Below are positions 53,613 to 63,315 of a DNA stretch of 64,000 nt, piece by piece; position 1 is the stretch's first letter, and every line of letters starts with the position of its first letter. Source of the stretch: Streptomyces morookaense (lineage in GTDB: Bacteria; Actinomycetota; Actinomycetes; Streptomycetales; Streptomycetaceae). Both the position numbers and the translations under genes were made by a program. The notes under the pieces are model-generated. The model was not told the DNA's origin, ran no database searches, and saw only the letters and a list, made by a program, of their open reading frames with translations. The stretch lies in assembly GCF_013030945.1 (NCBI RefSeq), contig NZ_JABBXF010000046.1, positions 1-64,000 on the forward strand, given 5' to 3'.

Positions 53613-54599
53613 CTAGGCGGCTTGGGTGAAGTGCGGTGCTGTTCTCCGGATCCGGTCGCGTTGCCGCAGCATCGCCCGGTCGACGGCCTCGCCGATCGCG
53701 TCAGTGCTGGTCTGGGCACGTTACGGATAGTCCTGGTACTTCGCTTGGCGCCATACCAGCTCGATGTCGTTCAACTCCGGGCTGTGCGGCGGGAGATAGG
53801 ACAGCTCCACCCCGATCTTCACCAGCTGGCCCCGCTGGCCTTTGAATACTCTGGACGTGTGTGCGGAGGCGTTGTCCAGCACCACCGTGCACGGCGGGGC
53901 ACGCTCACAAGCCGGTATCGCCTCGATGCCGAGGCCGTCGGCGGACAGCTCCAGGGCACCGACTCTGCCGCGCAGCCCGGCGATCCACATGCAGACGAAA
54001 TCCAGCAGCACGGTCCCATCGAACTTTCCACAGGCGCGCTGCCAGAGCAGGTCCGGGGCGGTGCCAGCGATCTGGGCGCCGAGCACGTTGACCCGCCGGT
54101 TCTGGTGTCCTCCCGGGGCACCACCGCCCGCTGCCCGGTTCTCGCCGGTGGGCATGGTCGGGGCGAACCCGGACTCGTCCAGGAAGATCAGGTCACGCTT
54201 CCCGGTGTCGGTGTCCTGTCGCAAGGCCGCAAGTCCTCCAGCTGGGCCCAGGCAGTCTGCTGGAGGACGGGGGTCGGCCTGGTGCCGAACGCTGTTGCGA
54301 CTGCGTTTCCAGCGGAAGCCGTCGCGACGCAGCAACTCCCACAACCAGTACGCGGAGATCTCCACGCCGCGCTGTGCACCCAGCCAGTCGCGCAGCGCGG
54401 GGACGATCCAGGTGATCCCCACCTCGTCAGAGGCGTCCAGCATCTCGGCCAGCGCAGCACGATCGTCCGGGCCCAGGATCTTCGCCGGGCGGCCCGGCCG
54501 GGCTGCGTCCGGCAGCGCGGCCAGGCCGCCCTTCTCGAAACGGTGAACCGCGGCGCGGACGTTGACCGGGTTGCATTTGACATGGAGGTACTTCGGCAT
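53613..54599 (-). pseudogene. IS630-family transposase with a premature stop
   Basis: From ATG 54599 the frame has KCNPVNVRAAVHRFEKGGLA, an HTH region, GKRDLIFLDESGFAPTMPTG (second motif), VVLDNASAHTSRVFKGQRGQ and PHSPELNDIELVWRQAKYQD (Glu). A TAA at 53721-53723 follows QDYP, but homologous sequence continues in frame as RAQTSTDAIGEAVDRAM and RQRDRIRRTAPHFTQAA to a TAG at 53613-53615. In addition, about 14 codons near 54230-54280 read RPPADCLGPAGGLAA in frame, whereas the +1-shifted reading gives the expected VLQQTAWAQLEDLR, so two compensating frameshifts are present. The gene is inactive or impaired. Confidence 0.78.
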
Positions 54600-54722
54600 G
54601 GCGTCCCTCCCGCAGAACGCCTACCCCCCCCCCGCAGCCCACTTCACCCAGACCATTTAGAGATCGTCTCGTTTGGCTCTCCAGGCAACTTGGTGGGTGC
54701 TGCGACTGCCGTGGCGGCAGGG

Positions 54723-55322
54723 TTACATGCCGCGGTCTGGCCCGCTCCACGGCTCTGGGCGTTCGCCAACGGTCATTGGAAGCCGGCGCAGCTGTACCGG
54801 GCCGGGGTAGAAGGCGGCCGTGTTGGGGCCGGCCATGTCTTCGCCGATGAGGTAGCGGTAGAGCCATTCGGCGAAGCTCATGTCGTAGCGTGCCCAGCCG
54901 CCTTCACCGTCTTCGACCAGGAGCCACGGGGCCGTGGCGCTCGCAGCGACGAGGAAGATTGTCTCGCCTCGGTCGGTGCTGGCGATCGGCCACAGTCCGT
55001 TGCGGGTGCCAAAGCTCAGCTCCGTGAGTCCGCACAGCAGGCGGGGGTCCTCGTCCGGGTCGAGGTCGTCCCACGACACCTCGGACCAGGCGCGGACCGT
55101 GTCCCGTATGCCCTGGCCCAGGTTCCAGCGTTCGGTCGCGGGGTGGTGCAGGTACAGGTGGCCGTTAAGCTGGATGGGAGCGTAGGCGTCCACGAGGGTC
55201 TGGTAGTCGGTCGGCAGCCGGATGTCGAGTTCTGCGTGGAGCCGGTCCCAGGCGACGGGGTCGGCGTAGCGGTTCTGGGCTGGGCCGAGCATCGCCATGG
55301 CGGCGGCCAGGTAGTCGGTCAT
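54723..55322 (-). CDS. SMI1/KNR4-family (SUKH) protein, probable immunity protein
   Basis: A 199-residue cytoplasmic protein of the SUKH superfamily: DPVAWDRLHAELDIRLPTDY, QTLVDAYAPIQLNGHLYLHH, LWPIASTDRGETIFLVAASA and WARYDMSFAEWLYRYLIGED. The opening W-x-x-L and LPxDY pattern and the later GE-x-x-FLV strand are characteristic. Bacterial SUKH proteins mainly neutralise nuclease and deaminase toxins. It lies about 3.2 kb downstream of the RHS toxin cluster, inside the IS5-type element and upstream of no toxin gene, so it may be a mobile orphan immunity gene. The start is the first ATG of the conserved domain; the upstream GAACGCCATG gives only a weak binding site. Confidence 0.8.
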   Translation of the reverse strand: MTDYLAAAMAMLGPAQNRYADPVAWDRLHAELDIRLPTDYQTLVDAYAPIQLNGHLYLHHPATERWNLGQGIRDTVRAWSEVSWDDLDPDEDPRLLCGLTELSFGTRNGLWPIASTDRGETIFLVAASATAPWLLVEDGEGGWARYDMSFAEWLYRYLIGEDMAGPNTAAFYPGPVQLRRLPMTVGERPEPWSGPDRGM

Positions 55323-55424
55323 GGCGTTCCTCGCTGGTGTGTGCCGTCTATGCGGCGGGCACCCCCCTCTATCGGGGGCATTCGGTTACGGCATGGATCA
55401 TCCCAGCTCGGAGGGGCTTGCCGG

Positions 55425-56251
55425 TCAGGCTGTCAGCCTGCGGTAGCAGATCAGGACGGCGGCGATGCCGGCGAACGCCAGGAAGTGTTCGGCCTTCCGC
55501 TCGTAGCGACGGTGCAGACGGCGGCATCCGGACAGCCACGCTACGGTGCGCTCCACGGTCCAACGGTGACGGCCAAGGCGCTGGGAGGATTCGATGCCCC
55601 GGCGCGCGATACGCGGTGTGATGTTGCTGGAGCGGAGCCACGTGCGCAGCCGGTCGGAATCGTAACCCTTGTCGCCGTGCAGCTTGGCCGGTCGACGGCG
55701 GCGCGGCCCACGGCGGGAGCGGATGGGCGGGATGCCCCGCACCATAGGCTCCAGACCCTGACTGTCGTGGGTGTTCGCAGCCGAGATCCCGATGAAGAGG
55801 GGCAGACCGGTCTACTCCGTGCTCAAGTGGATCTTTGATCCCTTCTTGCCGCGATCTACGGGATTCGAACCCGTCAGGTCCCCCCTTTGAGGGCCCGCAT
55901 GTTCACCGAGTCGATCGCGCACCGCGACCAGGCCAGCCCGCCGCGTGCGCCGAGCTCGTCCAGGACCAGACGATGGAGCTTGCCCCACACGCGGGCCCGG
56001 CTCCACTCGGTGAAGCGGCGGTGCGCGGTCGGCCCGGACGGGCCAAAGCCCGGCGGCAGTTGCCGCCACGTGCAGCCGGTCGTGGCCACGAACACGATGG
56101 CAGCCAACACCTGCCGGCCCCCGTACCGGCGCCGTCCACCACCCTGCGGCCGCACCGGCGCCGCCGGAACCACCCGCTGGAACAACTCCCACAACCCGTC
56201 CGGCACCAGCCGCTCCACCATCGCCATCACGGCCGCCAGCCTAGTGATCAA
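55425..56251 (-). pseudogene. IS5-family transposase with -1 shift site and an in-frame stop
   Basis: The first frame from ATG 56251 gives MVERLVPDGLWELFQRVVPA, FVATTGCTWRQLPPGFGPSG and DSVNMRALK, ending near 55874. Homology continues in the -1 frame after CTCAAAGGGGGG with RGDLTGSNPVDRGKKGSKIH, as in the other IS5 element at 26159. A TAG at 55812-55814 then interrupts the frame after HLSTE, and it resumes with TGLPLFIGISAANTHDSQG, RRRRPAKLHGDKGYDSDRLR and RHRWTVERTVAWLSGCRRLH to a TGA at 55425-55427. The frameshift is normal for the family; the stop codon is the disabling change. Confidence 0.78.
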
Positions 56252-56298
56252 GCCAGTTGAGACGATCTCTTAGGCCCAGTAGGCCCAGAAACGATGGT

Positions 56299-56951
56299 TC
56301 AGTCCGCCGTCGGTTCTCCGGGAGCCGTCGGAATCTCGCTGAAGTCCATCGGTTCCGTGAGGTACAGCTCCGAGGTGTCCAGCTCGTGCGGCGGGCGTAG
56401 GCCCCAGCGGGCCTCGGGTTCCGCCTCGCCGCGCTGTTTCAGCCGCGCCGATCCGATCAGGCCACCGCTGACGTACATCCCGCGCCACAGGACCGTGCTC
56501 GGCTCCCGGGTGGTGAACCTGGCTCCCAGGCCGCTCTCGGAGCCGATGCCGAGGCTGCCGCGCACGCGGCCGAGATCGAACTCCCCGACGACCGCGTCGG
56601 CGCCCAGGTTCACCACCGAGTGCGCACCGGACTCCTTGGCGATGACCACGATCACCGGCCCGCCGATGCCACTTCCATGACCAGCACCCACTCCCGCCGC
56701 CACTTTCCCCGCCGGTACAGGTCGAGCACCTGGTCTTCGACGCCGGCCAGGTCGGCCAGGCGGCTGACCCGCACCGCCTTGGTCTTCAGGACGAAGGATC
56801 CGCCCCGCCGGAACTTCAGCCTGAGCCCCACATGCCCCGAGGGCAGTCAACCCGCGTGGGCGACCTCGCCTACGGATGCCGGTCCGGCCAGCCCCCCGAG
56901 GCCAAGGATGACGGCGGCAGCCGCCGAGCTGCTCAAAGTGGAGAACTTCAT
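56299..56951 (-). pseudogene. Secreted-protein gene with frameshifts
   Basis: From ATG 56951 a signal peptide is encoded (MKFSTLSSSAAAAVILGLGG ending ASVGEVAHAG), but a stop follows at once. In a second frame come LRLKFRRGGSFVLKTKAVRV and EDQVLDLYRRGKWRREWVLV, and in a third frame VIVVIAKESGAHSVVNLGAD, GSLGIGSESGLGARFTTREP and LDTSELYLTEPMDFSEIPTA. The pieces fit one secreted protein of about 215 residues of unknown function, now split by two frame changes. It carries the 18-bp motif 190 bases upstream, like the two other secreted-protein genes to the right. Confidence 0.62.
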
Positions 56952-57140
56952 GAGTTCGCTCCCATTTTCGATCAATGCGGGCAGTCAGGACTGTGGTGGC
57001 AACGGGTTGCCCGGGGGTGGGACGAGCCGCACCGGACAACAACGTTCGGACAGCGACCGGGCCCGAGACCACTCGGCGGGTGAAGACGCCGATGGGGCAT
57101 GGACAAAGCCTGCAGCACACGCCGTCGCCGTATTTCCATC

Positions 57141-57158
57141 GTTGTTGCGCACCCCCGT
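57141..57158 (-). promoter_or_regulatory. 18-bp shared element, copy A
   Basis: Read on the minus strand this is CGGGGGTGCGCAACAACG, 190 bases upstream of the broken secreted-protein gene. The same 18 bases occur upstream of the GH25 gene and the small peptidoglycan-binding gene, always in gene orientation. The outer GTTGCAC block seen in the other copies is only partly kept here (GCTGCATG). Confidence 0.6.
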
Positions 57159-57183
57159 TGCCACCGCATGCAGCCGGACCCGG

Positions 57184-58491
57184 TCAGTTGACCAGCGCCA
57201 GCCAGGTGTTGGGGCCGACGATGCCGTCGGGGGTGAGCTGGTTGCGGGTCTGGAAGGCGACCACGGCGTCATGCGTGGCGGCACCGAAGGAGCCGTCGAC
57301 CGACAGCGCCGCGCCATGGGCTTTCAGTTCGGCCTGCACCGCGCTGACAGCCGGACCGCGGGCGCCTTGCCCAACGGTGGTGATGAGGGCTTGCCAGGTG
57401 TGGGGCCCGACGATGCCGTCGGGTGTGAGCTGGTTGCGGGCTTGGAAGGCGACCACGGCGTCATGCGTGGCGGCACCGAAGGAGCCGTCGACCGACAGCG
57501 CCGCGCCATGGGCTTTGAGCAGGTACTGGATGGTGGTCACCTGGCGGCCCTTGTACCCCTGCTGGACGACCGGCCACGCGTCGGCCGCTGGGGGCGGTGG
57601 GGGCGTGTAGGTGCCGTTGGCGGCGAGGTTCCGCAGGTCCTGCTCGGTGCCGTTGAAAACGTCCTGATCACCGGGAAACGCCCCCGAGTCGGACGTCTGC
57701 CAGAAGGCGTACGTGGACCAGCCGCTGGGCAGGGGGTGTGGAGTACCGGTCCAGCTGCCGATCCAGATCAGGTTGGTGGCGGCGAAGGCGGAGGAGTTGC
57801 CGGTGCACTGCGACCACCACGACGTGTTGGTGTTGATCACCGGGTGGCGGCCGGTGCGGCGCCGGTATTCGTTGTCGAACGAGGCGATCCAGCGCACTGT
57901 CGCACCCGGACTGACCCCGTAGCAGGTCGGCAGGCCCGGCGTCGCCTCGATGTCCAGGACACCGGGGAGGGTCCTGCCGTCGGGCTGCCAGGCGCCTCCG
58001 TGGTCGATGAAGTAGTCGGCTTGGGTGCGGCCGGAGGATGTGTCCGGCCTGGCGAAATGGTAGGCGCCGCGGATCAGGCCGGCCTCTGCTGCTCCGGCGT
58101 ATTGCGCGGAGAACCGGGAGCTGGTGTACGAGGTGCCCTCGGTGGCCTTGATGTAGGCGAAGGAGGCTCCGTCGGCGGCGACGGAGGACCAGTCCACGGT
58201 TTCCTGGTAGGCGCTGACGTCGAGGCCGCGCACAGGGGTACCTGCAGCCTGCCGCGATGGCAGTCCTGGGGCCCGATCGGTGCCATGCGCTTGGCGGGCA
58301 GGGCCGTCGAGGCCGGTCTGTGCGGTCGGCGTAGCGAACGTCGCCGTCGCCGATGCCGAATCCGGGACGGTAAGCAGGGCGGCGGCGACGGCAGTTGCCG
58401 CGGTCAGTGCACCGCGCGCCGCCCGCCTTCCGCGTCGAGCACTGCAAGACGCTTCCTGAGGCTGTCGGGGATTTCTCGGTTTCCATGCCAT
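57184..58491 (-). CDS. Secreted GH25 lysozyme with two peptidoglycan-binding domains
   Basis: A 435-residue exported muramidase. The signal region (RRGRRAARGALTAATAVAAA to ASATA) is followed by a spacer and the GH25 catalytic domain (about 85-290): RGLDVSAYQETVDW with Asp91, IKATEGTSY, GAYHFARPD and GVLDIEATPG with D180/E182. After a proline linker come two PG_binding_1 repeats (about 315-375 and 380-433) that are nearly identical in protein and DNA. It would cleave the N-acetylmuramyl bond of the cell wall. AAGGA precedes the ATG at 58491. It is divergent from the HTH-STAND-WD40 gene, with the 18-bp element between them. Confidence 0.88.
   Translation of the reverse strand: MAWKPRNPRQPQEASCSARRGRRAARGALTAATAVAAALLTVPDSASATATFATPTAQTGLDGPARQAHGTDRAPGLPSRQAAGTPVRGLDVSAYQETVDWSSVAADGASFAYIKATEGTSYTSSRFSAQYAGAAEAGLIRGAYHFARPDTSSGRTQADYFIDHGGAWQPDGRTLPGVLDIEATPGLPTCYGVSPGATVRWIASFDNEYRRRTGRHPVINTNTSWWSQCTGNSSAFAATNLIWIGSWTGTPHPLPSGWSTYAFWQTSDSGAFPGDQDVFNGTEQDLRNLAANGTYTPPPPPAADAWPVVQQGYKGRQVTTIQYLLKAHGAALSVDGSFGAATHDAVVAFQARNQLTPDGIVGPHTWQALITTVGQGARGPAVSAVQAELKAHGAALSVDGSFGAATHDAVVAFQTRNQLTPDGIVGPNTWLALVN
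57201..57519 (-). repeat. Two near-identical 127-bp direct repeats encoding PG-binding domains
   Basis: Copies lie at 57201-57327 and 57393-57519. They share almost every base, including long silent identity through GACCACGGCGTCATGCGTGG. The intervening 65 bases differ. The near-perfect silent-site match points to a recent duplication or gene conversion rather than an ancient repeat. Confidence 0.85.
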
Positions 58492-58848
58492 CTGCGCAGA
58501 TCCTTCCCTCGTCCGGCAATTGCGGGGGTGATGGTGAGCGGCACAGCGGGCCCGAAGCGCAACGGATACGGCCCGACCGTGCCCTCGCCGGGTGGGCCGG
58601 CGACACCCCCGTCGCCGCCGGTCCACCGCCTTTCTCCGCGGTCCGTGTGCACCGTCGGAGTGCTGACCGCCGTCACAGCGTCGTGGGCCCGCTCGTTGTT
58701 GCGCACCCCCGGGCCATGCCGTGCAACAAACCTCCCGGCAGCCGGTCGTGGGAGTCGGCTGGCCGAAAAAATGCTGTCCGGATATGCGACCGGTGCATGA
58801 CGGTGCCAAGGTGTCCGTCCAAAAGCGTGCTGACCCTTGGGGGTTGGG
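58492..58848. other. Divergent control region between GH25 and STAND genes
   Basis: About 357 bases with no gene. It holds copy B of the 18-bp element and its companion GTTGCAC block (58721-58730 on the minus strand), and must contain promoters for both genes. The GH25 leader from this element to the start is about 200 bases. I found no known riboswitch in it. Confidence 0.5.
58694..58711 (-). promoter_or_regulatory. 18-bp shared element, copy B
   Basis: The minus strand reads CGGGGGTGCGCAACAACG, identical to copies A and C, 203 bases upstream of the GH25 start. On the same strand TTTGTTGCACG lies ten bases further upstream, as in copy C. The two blocks give half sites GTTGCAC and GTGCGCAAC in opposite orientation. 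Confidence 0.65.
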
Positions 58849-61800
58849 ATGGGACGTCGTGAGGGTCCGCTGGATCCGGGGGCCGGCCCCGTGCAACGCT
58901 TCGCGTTCGAGTTGCGCAAGCTGCGCCAGGAGGCGGGAGGGCCGACCTACCGGCTCATGGCGCAGCGCACCGAGTACTCGGTCGCCACCTTGTCGAGAGC
59001 GGCCGCAGGTGACCAATTTCCGTCCCTGGCCGTGGTATTGGCCTACGTGCGGGCATGCGGCGCAGACGCCGGGGAATGGGAGCAGCGCTGGCACGCGGTG
59101 GCCCGGGAAGTGGCCGGCGAGCCGGCGGATGCCGACGATGCGGACGCCCCCTACCGGGGCCTGGCCCGCTTCGAACCCGGTGACCGGGATCTGTTCTTCG
59201 GGCGCGACCAACTCGTGATGCAACTCGCCGAGCGCGTGCGCACCCACCGTATGGTCGCGGTGGTGGGAGCCTCCGGCAGCGGCAAGTCCTCCTTGCTGCG
59301 CGCGGGACTCATCCCCACCCTCCGGAGCCAAGCTTCCCCGGGGTGTCTGCTGGCGGCCATCCGCATCCTCACCCCCGGGCCGCGCCCGCTGACCACCCAT
59401 GCCGACGCGATGACGTCAGGTGAAGGCCCCGGTGACACGGTCGTCATAGTGGACCAGTTCGAGGAGCTGTTCACGCTGTGCGCAGATCCGGCCGAGCGGG
59501 CGGCTTTCCTCGACCTGCTGATGACCGCGGTGAGACCGGACAGCAGACTGCGGGTGGTGATAGCGGTACGGGCGGACTTCTTCGGCCGCTGCGCCGAGCA
59601 CCGTCCTCTCGCCACCGCGCTCAGGGACGCCACCTTCCTCCTCGACCCCATGGGGCCGGCCGAACTCCGCGAAGCAATCGTCAAGCCGGCCGCAGCCGCC
59701 GGCCTGATCGTCGAGCGCGCCTTGACCGCGCAGATCGTCGAAGACGTCGCCGAGGAACCCGGCGGGCTGCCGCTGATGTCCCACGCCCTGCTGGAAACCT
59801 GGCGCCGTCGCAAGGGCCGCACCCTCACCCTGGCCGCCTACCAGGCGGCAGGCGGTGTCCACGGTGCCCTCACCCGCACCGCCGAGGAGACGTACACCCG
59901 GCTCACCCCGGAGCAGGCCGAGGCCGCCCGGCGGATCCTGCTGCGACTGATCACCCCCGGCGAAGGCGCCCAGGACACCAGCCGTCCCGCCGACCGTGCC
60001 GAACTGCAGGCGCAGAACACCACCGACCAGCCCCCGGACGCGGCCTCGGTGCTGGAACAACTGGCCCGCGCACGGCTGATCACACTCGACGGCGACATGG
60101 TGCACCTGGCCCACGAAGCTCTGATCACCGCTTGGCCGCGACTCCAGTCCTGGATCGACGACGCCCGCGACCGCCTGCGTGCCCACCGTCAGCTCACCGA
60201 AGCCGCCCGCACCTGGAACGCTCTCGACCGGGACCCCGGGGCCCTGTACCGCGGCACACGACTGGCCGCGGCCGAGGAGTGCTTCACCGGGTACCGCGCG
60301 GACCTCATCCCGGTCGAGTGTTCGTTCCTCGATGCCAGCATTGCCGCCCGCGAGCAGGAACGACGGGCGGCGGCCCGCACCACCCGGCGTATCAGGGTGC
60401 TGCTGGCCGCGCTGTCCGCGCTGCTGCTGCTCGCGTCGACGGCCGCCGTCATCGCGTACCAGCAGCGCGGATTGGCGCGCGCCGACCGCGACCGGGCGGT
60501 GGCCGAGCAGATGGTGGCCGAGGCGGGCCAGCTCAATGCGACCGATCCGTCGCTGGCGGCCCGCATGTATGTGGCGGCTCACCGAATGCGCTCGGACCCC
60601 GCAGCCACCGCAGGTCTCTTGGACACCCAGAACAGCGCACTGTCCGCTCTCTTGTCCGGACACACCCAGGCTGTGTACGCAGTGGCGTTCTCGCCGGACG
60701 GCCACATCCTCGCCACGGGTGCCGGTGACGGCACGATCCGGTTGTGGAACCTGGCCGACCCCGGGCGTCCCGTCCCGCTGGGCAGGCCTCTGACCGGCCA
60801 CACCGACTGGGTGTACTGGCTGCAGTTCTCGCCGGACGGCCGGACCTTGGCCAGCGCGAGCCGCGACCGCACGGCGCGACTGTGGGACGTCCGTGACCCG
60901 CTGTACCCGAGGGCCCTCGGCAGACCGCTGACCGGACACACCGACTTCGTGTTCTCCGTGTCGTACAGCCGTGACGGACGCACTCTGGCCACCGCGAGCC
61001 AGGACCGCACCGTGCGGCTGTGGGACGTCTCCGACCCCGCACACGCACAGGCGCTGGGCCGGCCACTCACCGGGGCGGGCGACCCCGTCTCCTCGGCCGC
61101 CGTCAGCCCCGACGGCCGGACCGTGGCGGCCCCCAGTCACGATCACACGATCCGTCTCTGGAACATCACCGACCGGACACACCCGGATTTGTGGCGACAG
61201 CCGCTGGACAACCCCGACGTCGTCTACGCGGTCGCGTTCCGCCCCGACAGCCGGCTCATGGCCAGCGTGGGCAACGACCAGAAGGTGCGGTTGTGGGACG
61301 TCTCCGACCCCGCACAGGCGAAGGCGCTGGGCGAGCCGTTGACCGGCCACAGCGGCACCCTGCTCGCGGTGGCCTTCTCACCGGACGGGCGGACTCTGGC
61401 CACCGGAGGCGCAGACCACACCATCCGCTTCTGGGACGTCTCCGACCCTTTGCATCCGGCCGCCCTCGGACAACCGCTCGTCGGCCACGCAGGGTTCATC
61501 AACTGGTTGGCATTCAGCCCGGACGGGGCGTCGCTGGCCAGTGTGAGCGACGACTACACCGTGCGCCTGTGGCATCTCCCGCGCACCGTTCTGGCCGGCC
61601 ACCTCGGCCACCTCACCAGCATCGCTTTCAGCCCCGACAACCGGACGCTGGCCGGCGCCGGTGACGGGACGGTACGGCTGTGGGACGTCCGCGATCCCGC
61701 GCGCGCCAGGCAGTTGAGCCGGCTGCCGGACGAGCACGCCGTCCTCCGGGTTCTGTTCCGCCCGGACGGCCGCCTGCTGGCGAGCGCCGCCGGTGACGGC

Positions 61801-62628
61801 ACCGTACGGCTGTGGGACGTCGCCGATGTGAACCGCCCGCGGCCGGACGGCGCGGTCCGCACCGGTGCCGCCGACCCGGTCGGTGTGCTGGCTTTCGCCG
61901 CAGGCGGGCGCGTGCTGGTCACCGGAGGCCCGGAGCACAGCCTGCGGCTGTGGAACGTCACCGATCCCACGCGCCCCGCCGCCCTCGGCCCGCCGCTGAC
62001 CGGCCATATCAGCCTCGTCCACTGGGCGGGCGTCAGCCCGGACGGTCACACCCTGGCCAGCACCAGCGAGGACGACAAGGTACGTCTGTGGGACCTCCGC
62101 GACCCGGCGCATCCGAGGGCGCTGCCGGACATCCGCACTAGCGACACCGGCGGCACCCAGTGGGGCGCGTTCAGCCCCGACGGAAAGCTCCTGGCCACCG
62201 CCGGCATGGGCCACGACGTGCGTGTATGGAACATCTCCACCCCCACCCGCGCCACAGAGCTCGGTAAACCGCTGACCGGCCACACCACCGCAGTGACCTG
62301 GGTGGGCTTCAGCCCGGACGGCCGCACTCTGGCCGCCGCCGGCGACGACCGGAGCGTCCTGCTGTGGAACATGACCGACCCGGCCCGTCCGGCCCCGTGG
62401 GGCAAGGCACTTACCGCCGGACACACCGACAGCATCGAGACGGCCGCCTACCGCCCGGACGGACAACTCCTGGCCACCGCAGGCCCCGACGGCATGATCG
62501 GGCTCACCCCCCTGGAACCCGGCCAGGCAATCCAGCGGATCTGCACCAGCACCGCCGGCCTGCTCACCCGGGAGCGATGGCCCGACTACGTACCCGAACT
62601 CCCTTACGCCCCACCCTGTCGCGACTGA
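58849..62628 (+). CDS. HTH - STAND ATPase - transmembrane - WD40 protein
   Basis: A 1,259-residue signalling protein. An N-terminal XRE-like helix-turn-helix (about 10-70: FELRKLRQEAGGPTYRLMAQ, YSVATLSRAAAGDQFPSLAV) is followed by a STAND-type NTPase (about 100-500) with Walker A GASGSGKSS near 140 and Walker B VVIVDQFEELF near 198. A single membrane-like segment IRVLLAALSALLLLASTAAV lies near 515-540. The C-terminus (about 600-1230) has fourteen WD40 repeats with RLWDV endings, enough for two seven-bladed propellers. STAND proteins are inducible switches in signalling and antiphage defence. The adjacent secreted cell-wall genes suggest envelope sensing here. ATG 58849 is preferred over TTG 58837. 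Confidence 0.85.
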   Translation: MGRREGPLDPGAGPVQRFAFELRKLRQEAGGPTYRLMAQRTEYSVATLSRAAAGDQFPSLAVVLAYVRACGADAGEWEQRWHAVAREVAGEPADADDADAPYRGLARFEPGDRDLFFGRDQLVMQLAERVRTHRMVAVVGASGSGKSSLLRAGLIPTLRSQASPGCLLAAIRILTPGPRPLTTHADAMTSGEGPGDTVVIVDQFEELFTLCADPAERAAFLDLLMTAVRPDSRLRVVIAVRADFFGRCAEHRPLATALRDATFLLDPMGPAELREAIVKPAAAAGLIVERALTAQIVEDVAEEPGGLPLMSHALLETWRRRKGRTLTLAAYQAAGGVHGALTRTAEETYTRLTPEQAEAARRILLRLITPGEGAQDTSRPADRAELQAQNTTDQPPDAASVLEQLARARLITLDGDMVHLAHEALITAWPRLQSWIDDARDRLRAHRQLTEAARTWNALDRDPGALYRGTRLAAAEECFTGYRADLIPVECSFLDASIAAREQERRAAARTTRRIRVLLAALSALLLLASTAAVIAYQQRGLARADRDRAVAEQMVAEAGQLNATDPSLAARMYVAAHRMRSDPAATAGLLDTQNSALSALLSGHTQAVYAVAFSPDGHILATGAGDGTIRLWNLADPGRPVPLGRPLTGHTDWVYWLQFSPDGRTLASASRDRTARLWDVRDPLYPRALGRPLTGHTDFVFSVSYSRDGRTLATASQDRTVRLWDVSDPAHAQALGRPLTGAGDPVSSAAVSPDGRTVAAPSHDHTIRLWNITDRTHPDLWRQPLDNPDVVYAVAFRPDSRLMASVGNDQKVRLWDVSDPAQAKALGEPLTGHSGTLLAVAFSPDGRTLATGGADHTIRFWDVSDPLHPAALGQPLVGHAGFINWLAFSPDGASLASVSDDYTVRLWHLPRTVLAGHLGHLTSIAFSPDNRTLAGAGDGTVRLWDVRDPARARQLSRLPDEHAVLRVLFRPDGRLLASAAGDGTVRLWDVADVNRPRPDGAVRTGAADPVGVLAFAAGGRVLVTGGPEHSLRLWNVTDPTRPAALGPPLTGHISLVHWAGVSPDGHTLASTSEDDKVRLWDLRDPAHPRALPDIRTSDTGGTQWGAFSPDGKLLATAGMGHDVRVWNISTPTRATELGKPLTGHTTAVTWVGFSPDGRTLAAAGDDRSVLLWNMTDPARPAPWGKALTAGHTDSIETAAYRPDGQLLATAGPDGMIGLTPLEPGQAIQRICTSTAGLLTRERWPDYVPELPYAPPCRD

Positions 62629-62952
62629 TAAGGAAACCGCGCATCACCCCCCGGCCTGGCCATTCTTGAGAGCCCAGTCGGCAGCCGGTCAGCTCCCTGT
62701 GGCGTTCCGCTGGGCCGTTGGGGACGCCGACCGAGCCTTGGGCCCTCGGCCAATTCCGCGGGTCCCCGCGTGCTCGGGGGTTTTGTTGCACGCTGCTGAA
62801 CGGGGGTGCGCAACAACGCGTCGGCTCGGAACCTGAGACCTGCCTCGCCGGACAGCTCACGGGGGACGGCGCAGGCCATCGGGATCACTTCCCGCATCCG
62901 GGCCCGACGCATGTTTCGCTCGGGCGCCGATCGTCTTCTACCGGAGGTAAGC
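62629..62952. other. Control region of the small PG-binding gene
   Basis: About 320 bases without a gene. It contains copy C of the 18-bp element and the companion block GGGGGTTTTGTTGCACG (62776-62792). The leader from copy C to the GTG start is 134 bases. A frame beginning inside the element would add 49 residues without homology and is rejected. Confidence 0.5.
62801..62818 (+). promoter_or_regulatory. 18-bp shared element, copy C
   Basis: CGGGGGTGCGCAACAACG, identical to copies A and B and in the same orientation relative to the downstream gene. TTTTGTTGCACG lies nine bases upstream, as in copy B. The element ends 134 bases before the GTG start at 62953. Confidence 0.65.
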
Positions 62953-63315
62953 GTGTCGTTGCTCTCCCGCGCCGCGGTGCTCACCGGCGCGGCCCTGATC
63001 GGTGGCGGACTGATCGCCGCCGCCCCGGCCGCCACCGCCGCCCCGGCCCAGGCCCAGCACTTCCACTGCAAGAGCTCTGACGAGCCCCAGATCTCGGTCG
63101 GTGCCACCGGGCCCGCCGTGGAGAAGGCCCAGTGCGAGCTCAACAGCGTCCTGGACCGGCACGTCACCGCCGACGGCAAATTCGGCCCGAAGACCGAGAG
63201 TGCCACCATCGCCTTCCAGGGGTGCGCCGGCCTCAGCACCGACGGCATCATCGGTCCCGACACCTGGGGCGCTCTCGACCTCTGGTGGTGGAACGACATC
63301 GACTGCCACAAGTGA
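62953..63315 (+). CDS. Small secreted peptidoglycan-binding protein
   Basis: A 120-residue exported protein. The signal is SLLSRAAVLTGAALIGGGLI with cleavage near AAPAQA; the mature part is one PG_binding_1 domain: VGATGPAVEKAQCELNSVLD, ADGKFGPKTESATIAFQGCA and STDGIIGPDTWGALDLWWWN. Two Cys residues flank the domain (HFHCKSS and DIDCHK), with two inside (QCE, GCA), so two disulfides are possible. GGAGG is five bases before the GTG. It has no catalytic domain and may act as a cell-wall ligand or modulator of the nearby lysozyme. A strong hairpin follows. Confidence 0.8.
   Translation: MSLLSRAAVLTGAALIGGGLIAAAPAATAAPAQAQHFHCKSSDEPQISVGATGPAVEKAQCELNSVLDRHVTADGKFGPKTESATIAFQGCAGLSTDGIIGPDTWGALDLWWWNDIDCHK

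Follow-up and report, generated by a model that had tools for sequence, protein, structure and literature searches.

MalT, which is an activator, and GutR are transcription regulators of the STAND type (signal transduction ATPases with numerous domains). AfsR from Streptomyces, another STAND-type regulator, has also been described to activate transcription (PMC10936776). All three unite in one protein a DNA-binding domain, a STAND/NOD domain that binds nucleotides and, at the C terminus, a repeat domain. A second kind is represented by CadC and ToxR, which are winged-helix proteins not known to contain a STAND ATPase. Proteins of this type are found among the transmembrane one-component regulators (PMC10269533), with the DNA-binding domain inside the cell, a membrane segment, and a sensor outside. 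Both kinds of regulator are known. The present work deals with a gene from Streptomyces morookaense that resembles both, located in a stretch of 64,000 nucleotides (assembly GCF_013030945.1, contig NZ_JABBXF010000046.1, positions 1 to 64,000; the whole stretch is referred to as the window), and with a repeated palindromic element near this gene that is very likely to be its operator. A regulator that unites the STAND and the membrane one-component designs, senses through WD40 repeats and has a private operator that changes between members is not described among the open-licence literature matches listed, and the main text of PMC10269533 holds no match for XRE or WD40. The gene encodes the following features:

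58849..62628, + strand: regulator of 1259 amino acids with a helix-turn-helix (HTH) domain of the XRE type, an nSTAND1 domain, a hydrophobic segment and WD40 repeats (Pfam, and an AlphaFold2 model of the HTH from one sequence)
58981..59007, + strand: modelled recognition helix, residues 45-53 (VATLSRAAA), including Arg50, which is associated with G at operator position 6
60397..60453, + strand: membrane segment predicted by hydropathy, residues 517-535 (VLLAALSALLLLASTAAVI)

Like AfsR, MalT and GutR, the window protein holds a STAND NTPase domain with Walker motifs (GASGSGKSS and VVIVDQFEE, recognized by eye in the translation). The nSTAND1 domain was matched in Pfam with an E value of 3.3e-130 (435.5 bits, for a cut-off of 27.1), and the WD40 repeats occupy 11 stretches. 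It differs from those regulators in its predicted N-terminal XRE-type HTH, in the hydrophobic segment between nSTAND1 and the WD40 repeats, and in the private palindromic operator proposed here. With CadC and ToxR it shares the predicted one-component layout, as hydropathy places a single membrane segment between the DNA-binding domain and the sensor. A hydrophobic segment between the ATPase and the WD40 repeats appears in 13/13 full proteins of the family, with a hydropathy of 1.81-2.67 over 19 residues (the next-best segment reaches at most 1.39). In each of the 13, the flank of the predicted segment toward the HTH has the greater net positive charge, a bias which suggests that the WD40 propellers lie outside the cell. 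Scans with NCBIfam and with the anti-phage defence models of PADLOC were uninformative for this regulator. In PADLOC, one model of the repeat type covered residues 521-776 (E 1.4e-43), and two further matches were short and weak.

The repeated element is a palindrome conserved as a kind, not as a sequence, and comparison of homologous loci shows that it adjoins genes of the HTH-nSTAND1-WD40 family. It very probably constitutes the operator of the adjacent HTH-nSTAND1-WD40 protein, by means of which the neighbouring gene or genes would be controlled. The best reading of the data is that each STAND regulator has a private operator for one or two neighbouring genes, mostly predicted to encode exported or envelope proteins. 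In the window, the element occurs as follows:

58696-58729, read on the + strand: copy B, candidate operator, a complete 34-bp imperfect palindrome between the GH25 gene and the STAND gene, with the extended arm toward the GH25 gene
62783-62816, read on the − strand: copy C, candidate operator, a complete 34-bp palindrome with the extended arm toward the peptidoglycan (PG)-binding gene
57142-57175, + strand: copy A, candidate operator remnant, with the extended arm (within 57140-57157) intact and the other arm degenerate, ending in GCATGCAGCC

These copies share the 18-mer CGGGGGTGCGCAACAACG, found at 57140-57157 (−), 58694-58711 (−) and 62801-62818 (+), that is, three exact copies within 6 kb. 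Allowing up to three mismatches still returns these three places only, for 0.29 expected. The 14-base core, GGGGTGCGCAACAA, is restricted to the same three places in the source genome of 7,467,659 bases. The 18-mer corresponds to a single arm of an imperfect palindrome 33-34 bp long, TTGTTGCGCACCCC-n11-GTGCAACAA, which is complete at copies B and C and half decayed at copy A, and the pattern TTGTTKC-n18..22-GMAACAA retrieves copies B and C and no other place in the source genome. The arrangement of copy B is repeated in five homologous GH25/STAND gaps, and copy C lies 155 bp past the STAND stop codon. A previous sequence-only reading of the window had reported an identical 18-bp element three times within 6 kb, and both the exact and the mismatch-tolerant searches bear this out; its coordinates hold for copies B and C and are off by one for copy A (57140-57157 instead of 57141-57158). 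It had considered a chance occurrence very unlikely, in agreement with 100 dinucleotide shuffles, none of which contained three or more matches at up to three mismatches. The orientation and distance it gave for the copies relative to three genes are about right, and the second block with inverted half sites that it saw at B and C is present, both copies being full palindromes.

Comparative evidence for the operator comes from the homologues of the STAND gene. The comparison covered 119 genes that encode an N terminus similar to the one in the window protein (the gene itself, its own paralogue and 117 others). They included 80 loci fetched by hand from the listed matches, leaving aside weaker matches and seven loci near contig ends or with short frames, so that the sample excludes genes much below E 1e-38 to the query, except L051. 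A pattern was derived from the window gene and L068-L091 (25 genes), and L092-L184 (93 genes, some of them closely related to the 25) were held out. The pattern was found within 400 bp upstream of 38/93 held-out homologues, for a mean of 0.01 and a maximum of 1 in 100 shuffled sets, and it was absent from both control stretches (0/93 at 1050-1450 bp upstream and 0/93 in the first 400 bp of the gene). On the opposite strand it was matched in 11/93, as expected because the sites are near-palindromic. In a scoring scan, 92 of the 119 upstream regions passed the 99% level of the null, and 90 scored higher than the null maximum. Even a blind rule in which only TTG, GCA and CAA are fixed and the variable bases are ignored identified a site in 67/119 (shuffle mean 0.15, maximum 1). 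Five homologues with the helix GxSTLSQAAGG (L106, L111, L122, L144 and L158) share a variant upstream site, TTGAATGGGCAGCC followed by GAACAA or GATCAA, which ranks low in the scorer, and the count of sites is probably an underestimate because variants of this type scored low.

When the exact pattern of one arm class, TTGTTCGGCA-n12..18-CGAACAA, was searched in 121 genomes, it was found in seven places and its reversed control in none. All seven are located at an HTH-STAND gene or a truncated remnant of one, and five are gene starts already in the set. At one of them (L205, 1501-1640) the exact operator is followed at 116 bp by what is left of a STAND gene, a truncated start (VAGRREVPIAGRAPGRIS) that runs into a stop. 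On the other side, at 140 bp, is a divergent signal-peptide gene, and this operator appears to have outlived its regulator. Named plasmids were also surveyed by reading 12 of 23 records, of which L211 is identical upstream to a set-1 locus and L210, L212 and L217 are 83-95% alike to one. The site score exceeded the null maximum in 11 of these 12 loci, including one from Kitasatospora, the exception being the one from Nonomuraea. In the source genome, the only close paralogue of the window gene is L051 (C225:41508; E 1.5e-32 to the query), with an L-A-E helix. It is preceded by TTGTCCGA and TCGGACAA, of the arm type of the L-A-E class at a wider spacing, and its scored site equals the null maximum.

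The two arms of a site match each other even when the sites differ. Arm types found on both sides include TTGTTGC/GCAACAA, TTGTTCG/CGAACAA, TTGTTCA/TGAACAA, TTGTTTG/CAAACAA, TTGTCTG/CAGACAA and TTGATTG/CAATCAA. Within the blind set, arm positions 4, 5, 6 and 7 are paired in 38, 42, 32 and 39 of 47 distinct pairs, respectively, each number exceeding the highest value reached in 5000 permutations (36, 40, 26 and 29). The arm bases also go with the residues of the recognition helix, Arg with G and Gln with C or T. In the score-selected set, Arg in the L-S-x motif accompanies G at operator position 6 in 17/20 genes, and Gln accompanies a base other than G in 49/49; the corresponding figures in the blind set are 12/14 and 36/37. 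Genes with an L-A-x motif hold C at operator position 5 in 8/9 cases, for 1/58 of the other genes (blind set). These data are suggestive of arm bases that change together with the recognition helix. The AlphaFold2 model of the window HTH, made from one sequence (pLDDT 78.9), places residue 50 inside the helix formed by residues 45-53. A profile built from 37 of 90 HTH sequences matched solved HTH proteins in the PDB (8tac_A, E 0.0019), and a Foldseek search with the model revealed a weak likeness to XRE regulators (best E 0.015, none at or below 0.001). ClgR and C.Esp1396I, both weak Foldseek matches, have the HTH fold in common with the modelled domain of the window protein, and the title of the C.Esp1396I entry describes a tetramer bound to its natural operator. 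These two are small proteins not known to contain an ATPase or WD40 repeats.

The element has a direction. After alignment of 67 sites at the element, with look-alikes removed, positions 13 and 15-19 on the partner side of the arm exceed 0.5 bits (the block GCTGAACTCG), as do positions 1 and 10, and none of positions 20-66 is higher than 0.30. Among the STAND-side positions, position 1 alone exceeds 0.5 bits. In the aligned sites, the element is directed toward the neighbouring gene, and the box GCTGAACTCG is conserved at a fixed distance on the partner side only. Scored with the set-1 box matrix, the block is present at 10/11 named-plasmid sites, where no more than 1% of shuffles score as well. 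The box may be part of a promoter. In the window it is found at copy C:

62827..62837, + strand: partner-side box of copy C (CGGAACCTGAG), with a score of 7.2 that none of 1000 shuffles reached

Twelve loci were read over about 20 kb, and six of them hold a second copy past the STAND gene (G117, G169, two in G264, G181 and G180), located 135-609 bp beyond the STAND stop codon, a distance comparable to that of copy C. The box accompanies five of these six second copies (scores 4.2-8.2), the one in G180 being without it (−1.4). The other six loci have one clear site each, with a further weaker match in G246 and G105. In G117, G169, G181 and the two G264 loci, the first copy has a GH25 lysozyme as its partner; in G180 it has an I36-family protein. 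The partners of the second copy vary: G264 C88 has a small exported protein, G180 a short frame and the window the PG-binding protein. In G117 the second-copy partner is CHAP-like by eye (similar in G169 and G264 C50), with no Pfam match where scanned, and in G181 no partner was found by the open reading frame (ORF) rule used.

Partner genes were analysed at 89 scoring sites (L051 was omitted), 74 of which gave a divergent ORF. By a crude rule, 47/74 partners start with an export or membrane sequence, compared to 23/119 control ORFs (Fisher p 8e-10). Pfam assigned PG_binding_1 to 11 partners, Acyl_transf_3 to 10, GH25 to six and Inhibitor_I36 to four, in addition to CHAP, GH16 and PMT_2 (three each) and a weak YkuD (two). 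Isolated matches also pointed to regulators, to an antitoxin and to a transposase, so not every partner is exported. Partners on the named plasmids include a lasso peptide precursor and acyltransferases, and in L206 and L217 the annotated upstream gene is in tandem and not divergent. The lasso peptide precursor gene (L208, 2149-2268), on a Streptomyces plasmid, is divergent from its HTH-STAND gene and has a good operator and box. Another partner (L211, 2051-2257) is a cysteine-containing product of 68 residues that resembles a secreted or modified peptide. The partners in the window are:

57184..58491, − strand: partner of copy B, a GH25 lysozyme that has a signal peptide and a pair of PG_binding_1 domains (Pfam)
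62953..63315, + strand: small secreted PG-binding protein, partner of copy C (Pfam; signal peptide by eye)
56850..56951, − strand: broken secreted-protein gene with a signal-peptide start, partner of copy A, with an in-frame stop after 34 codons

The frame next to copy A (56299-57120, −) matched no Pfam family. On the same side, the region 53721-56260 (−) contains a DDE_3 transposase gene and IS4/5-type transposase pieces in separate frames.

A wide regulon of fixed sequence was also considered, and it was rejected. The 14-base core appears in 32/392 Streptomyces genomes, including the source (its reversed control in seven places). These amount to 31 foreign places, and among the 29 foreign loci fetched and examined the same two-armed element was found in one, L020 of G169, between a GH25 gene and a STAND gene. 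A two-block search gave hits in 15/392 genomes, again including the source (control, 1), and reading them left one true copy beyond the source genome. Given that each search yielded a single true copy outside the source genome, the homologues of the STAND gene were taken as the basis instead. Relatives of the PG-binding protein, chosen regardless of a STAND gene, showed no TTGTT-type site in any of 16 loci (600 bp before the gene in L033 and the whole of L053-L067 were scanned); one of them, L064, has a GC-rich palindrome just above the score threshold.

Other elements came to light in these searches. In 12/29 foreign core loci the core is followed by AGTTGGTATGGACCAATC or a close variant. This second conserved element consists of GGGGTGCGCAACAAAGTTGGTATGGACCAATC or a close variant, opened by the 14-mer, and then an inverted copy of its TTGGTATGGACCAA part; it is reminiscent of operators ahead of chitinase-type genes.

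Position about 1500 in L004, L009, L011, L012, L019, L021, L023, L024, L025, L028, L030 and L031: second element of the GGGGTGCGCAACAAAGTTGGTATGGACCAATC type

A different operator-like element, the compact palindrome GTTGCACACnAnTAAnTTGTGCGCAAC, is shared by L034 and L041, from two genomes, just ahead of an apparent gene start.

Several observations weigh against the proposed operator or parts of it. Upstream regions not over the 99% null point amount to 27/119, and 52/119 are without a site under the blind rule; moreover, the exact site of L199 is reversed relative to its STAND gene, a 48%-identical homologue. By the rule used, 15/89 sites had no divergent ORF. Since the set-1 matrix was itself built from partner-side sequence, the mean box scores that it gives for set 1 (partner side, 7.07; STAND side, −2.90) are at least partly circular, and window copies A (−4.4) and B (−0.6) are without a recognisable box. 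Three second-copy partners (in G117, G169 and one in G264) lack a clear signal peptide, and the one of them that was scanned matched no Pfam family. The permutations used for arm pairing leave relatedness in. With respect to the helix, L181 holds Arg and yet has a Gln-type arm, and a tree built without the helix shows only two supported independent changes for the association. Of the two independent pairs, an average of 0.7 had the arm going in the same direction and 0.1 in the opposite one (sign test, p 1). With so few independent changes, the association between helix and arm is suggestive but unproven.

Three other explanations have been weighed. Taken together, the proximal arm and the fixed box might form a promoter of two parts, so that another regulator, such as a sigma factor or a separate DNA-binding protein, would bind the site and control STAND loci as a class. 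Such a regulator would need one common sequence, but the arms differ among members and match within each site, and in 121 genomes the exact sites of one class are confined to HTH-STAND genes, which makes this explanation unlikely. Complementary, covarying arms are also what would be expected of an RNA hairpin in the leader of the partner mRNA, acting after transcription start, and partner frames, at the starts chosen, begin 20-498 nt beyond the site. Wobble pairing, however, is not favoured: mismatched arm cells comprise 20 G/T versus 17 A/C in the blind set and 26 versus 24 in the score-selected set, and this lack of bias points to a DNA palindrome bound by protein rather than to an RNA stem. 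Furthermore, a hairpin would have no need for an HTH-STAND gene alongside, and Rfam gave no match near the gathering score, only three at chance level, of which COG2908 RNA at 58712-58743 overlaps copy B (16.3 bits for 58.7 needed, E 3.6). A hairpin is accordingly regarded as very improbable.

The sequence-only reading had also pointed to a mobile repeat as something that would undermine a regulatory role, and the three near-identical copies lie close together, with transposase genes and fragments at 53.7-56.3 kb beside copy A, while 1/74 partner frames matches a transposase domain. Functionless remnants of such a repeat, or of a local duplication, would nevertheless be hard to reconcile with a conservation limited to the element and a few partner-side bases, or with the presence of copies 1 and 2 at the same positions in six homologous loci (unscanned for transposases) whose second partners differ. 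No copy exists elsewhere in the source genome, and there is hardly any probability left for this origin. The copies are confined to the locus rather than scattered at random, the other circumstance that reading had named. It had left open whether the STAND protein is the binder, which the association now favours (67/119 by the blind rule, 7/7 exact sites, and 0/16 among PG-binding relatives). Its local envelope-gene regulon with an inverted-repeat operator is likewise favoured by comparison, although "cell-wall remodelling" is too narrow a description: lysozymes and PG-binding proteins are joined by an acyltransferase, an I36-family protein and a lasso peptide precursor. The genome search for the two-block motif that it had recommended revealed no fixed genus-wide motif; the homologues point instead to private sites with arms that differ from one STAND gene to another.

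According to the operator reading, a single membrane segment would anchor the STAND protein, leaving the WD40 propellers to act as a sensor outside the cell and the HTH and ATPase in the interior. A cell-surface signal would switch the ATPase, and the HTH domains may then form pairs or oligomers on the two arms, which are separated by about 2.5 helical turns, changing the transcription of the neighbour or neighbours. For the window, this would put the GH25 lysozyme and the PG-binding protein under the control of a single STAND protein, as the gene that is now broken would once have been. Activation seems somewhat more likely than repression, because the conserved arm stands at a fixed distance upstream of a promoter-like box and because MalT and AfsR activate.

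For this apparently uncharacterised class of Streptomyces sensors, both binding sites and targets can now be predicted, and a first, tentative residue-to-base rule is at hand. Should the WD40 propellers indeed be outside, these proteins would be STAND regulators that sense the cell surface directly. The wider picture, for which the chances appear about even, is that of a large Streptomyces family of membrane-spanning STAND factors with external WD40 sensors, whose operators, one to each factor, change together with the recognition helix and which each rule one or two neighbouring exported effectors, among them wall hydrolases, acyltransferases, small secreted proteins and even a lasso peptide, forming an interchangeable surface-sensing module that may perhaps serve competition or defence.

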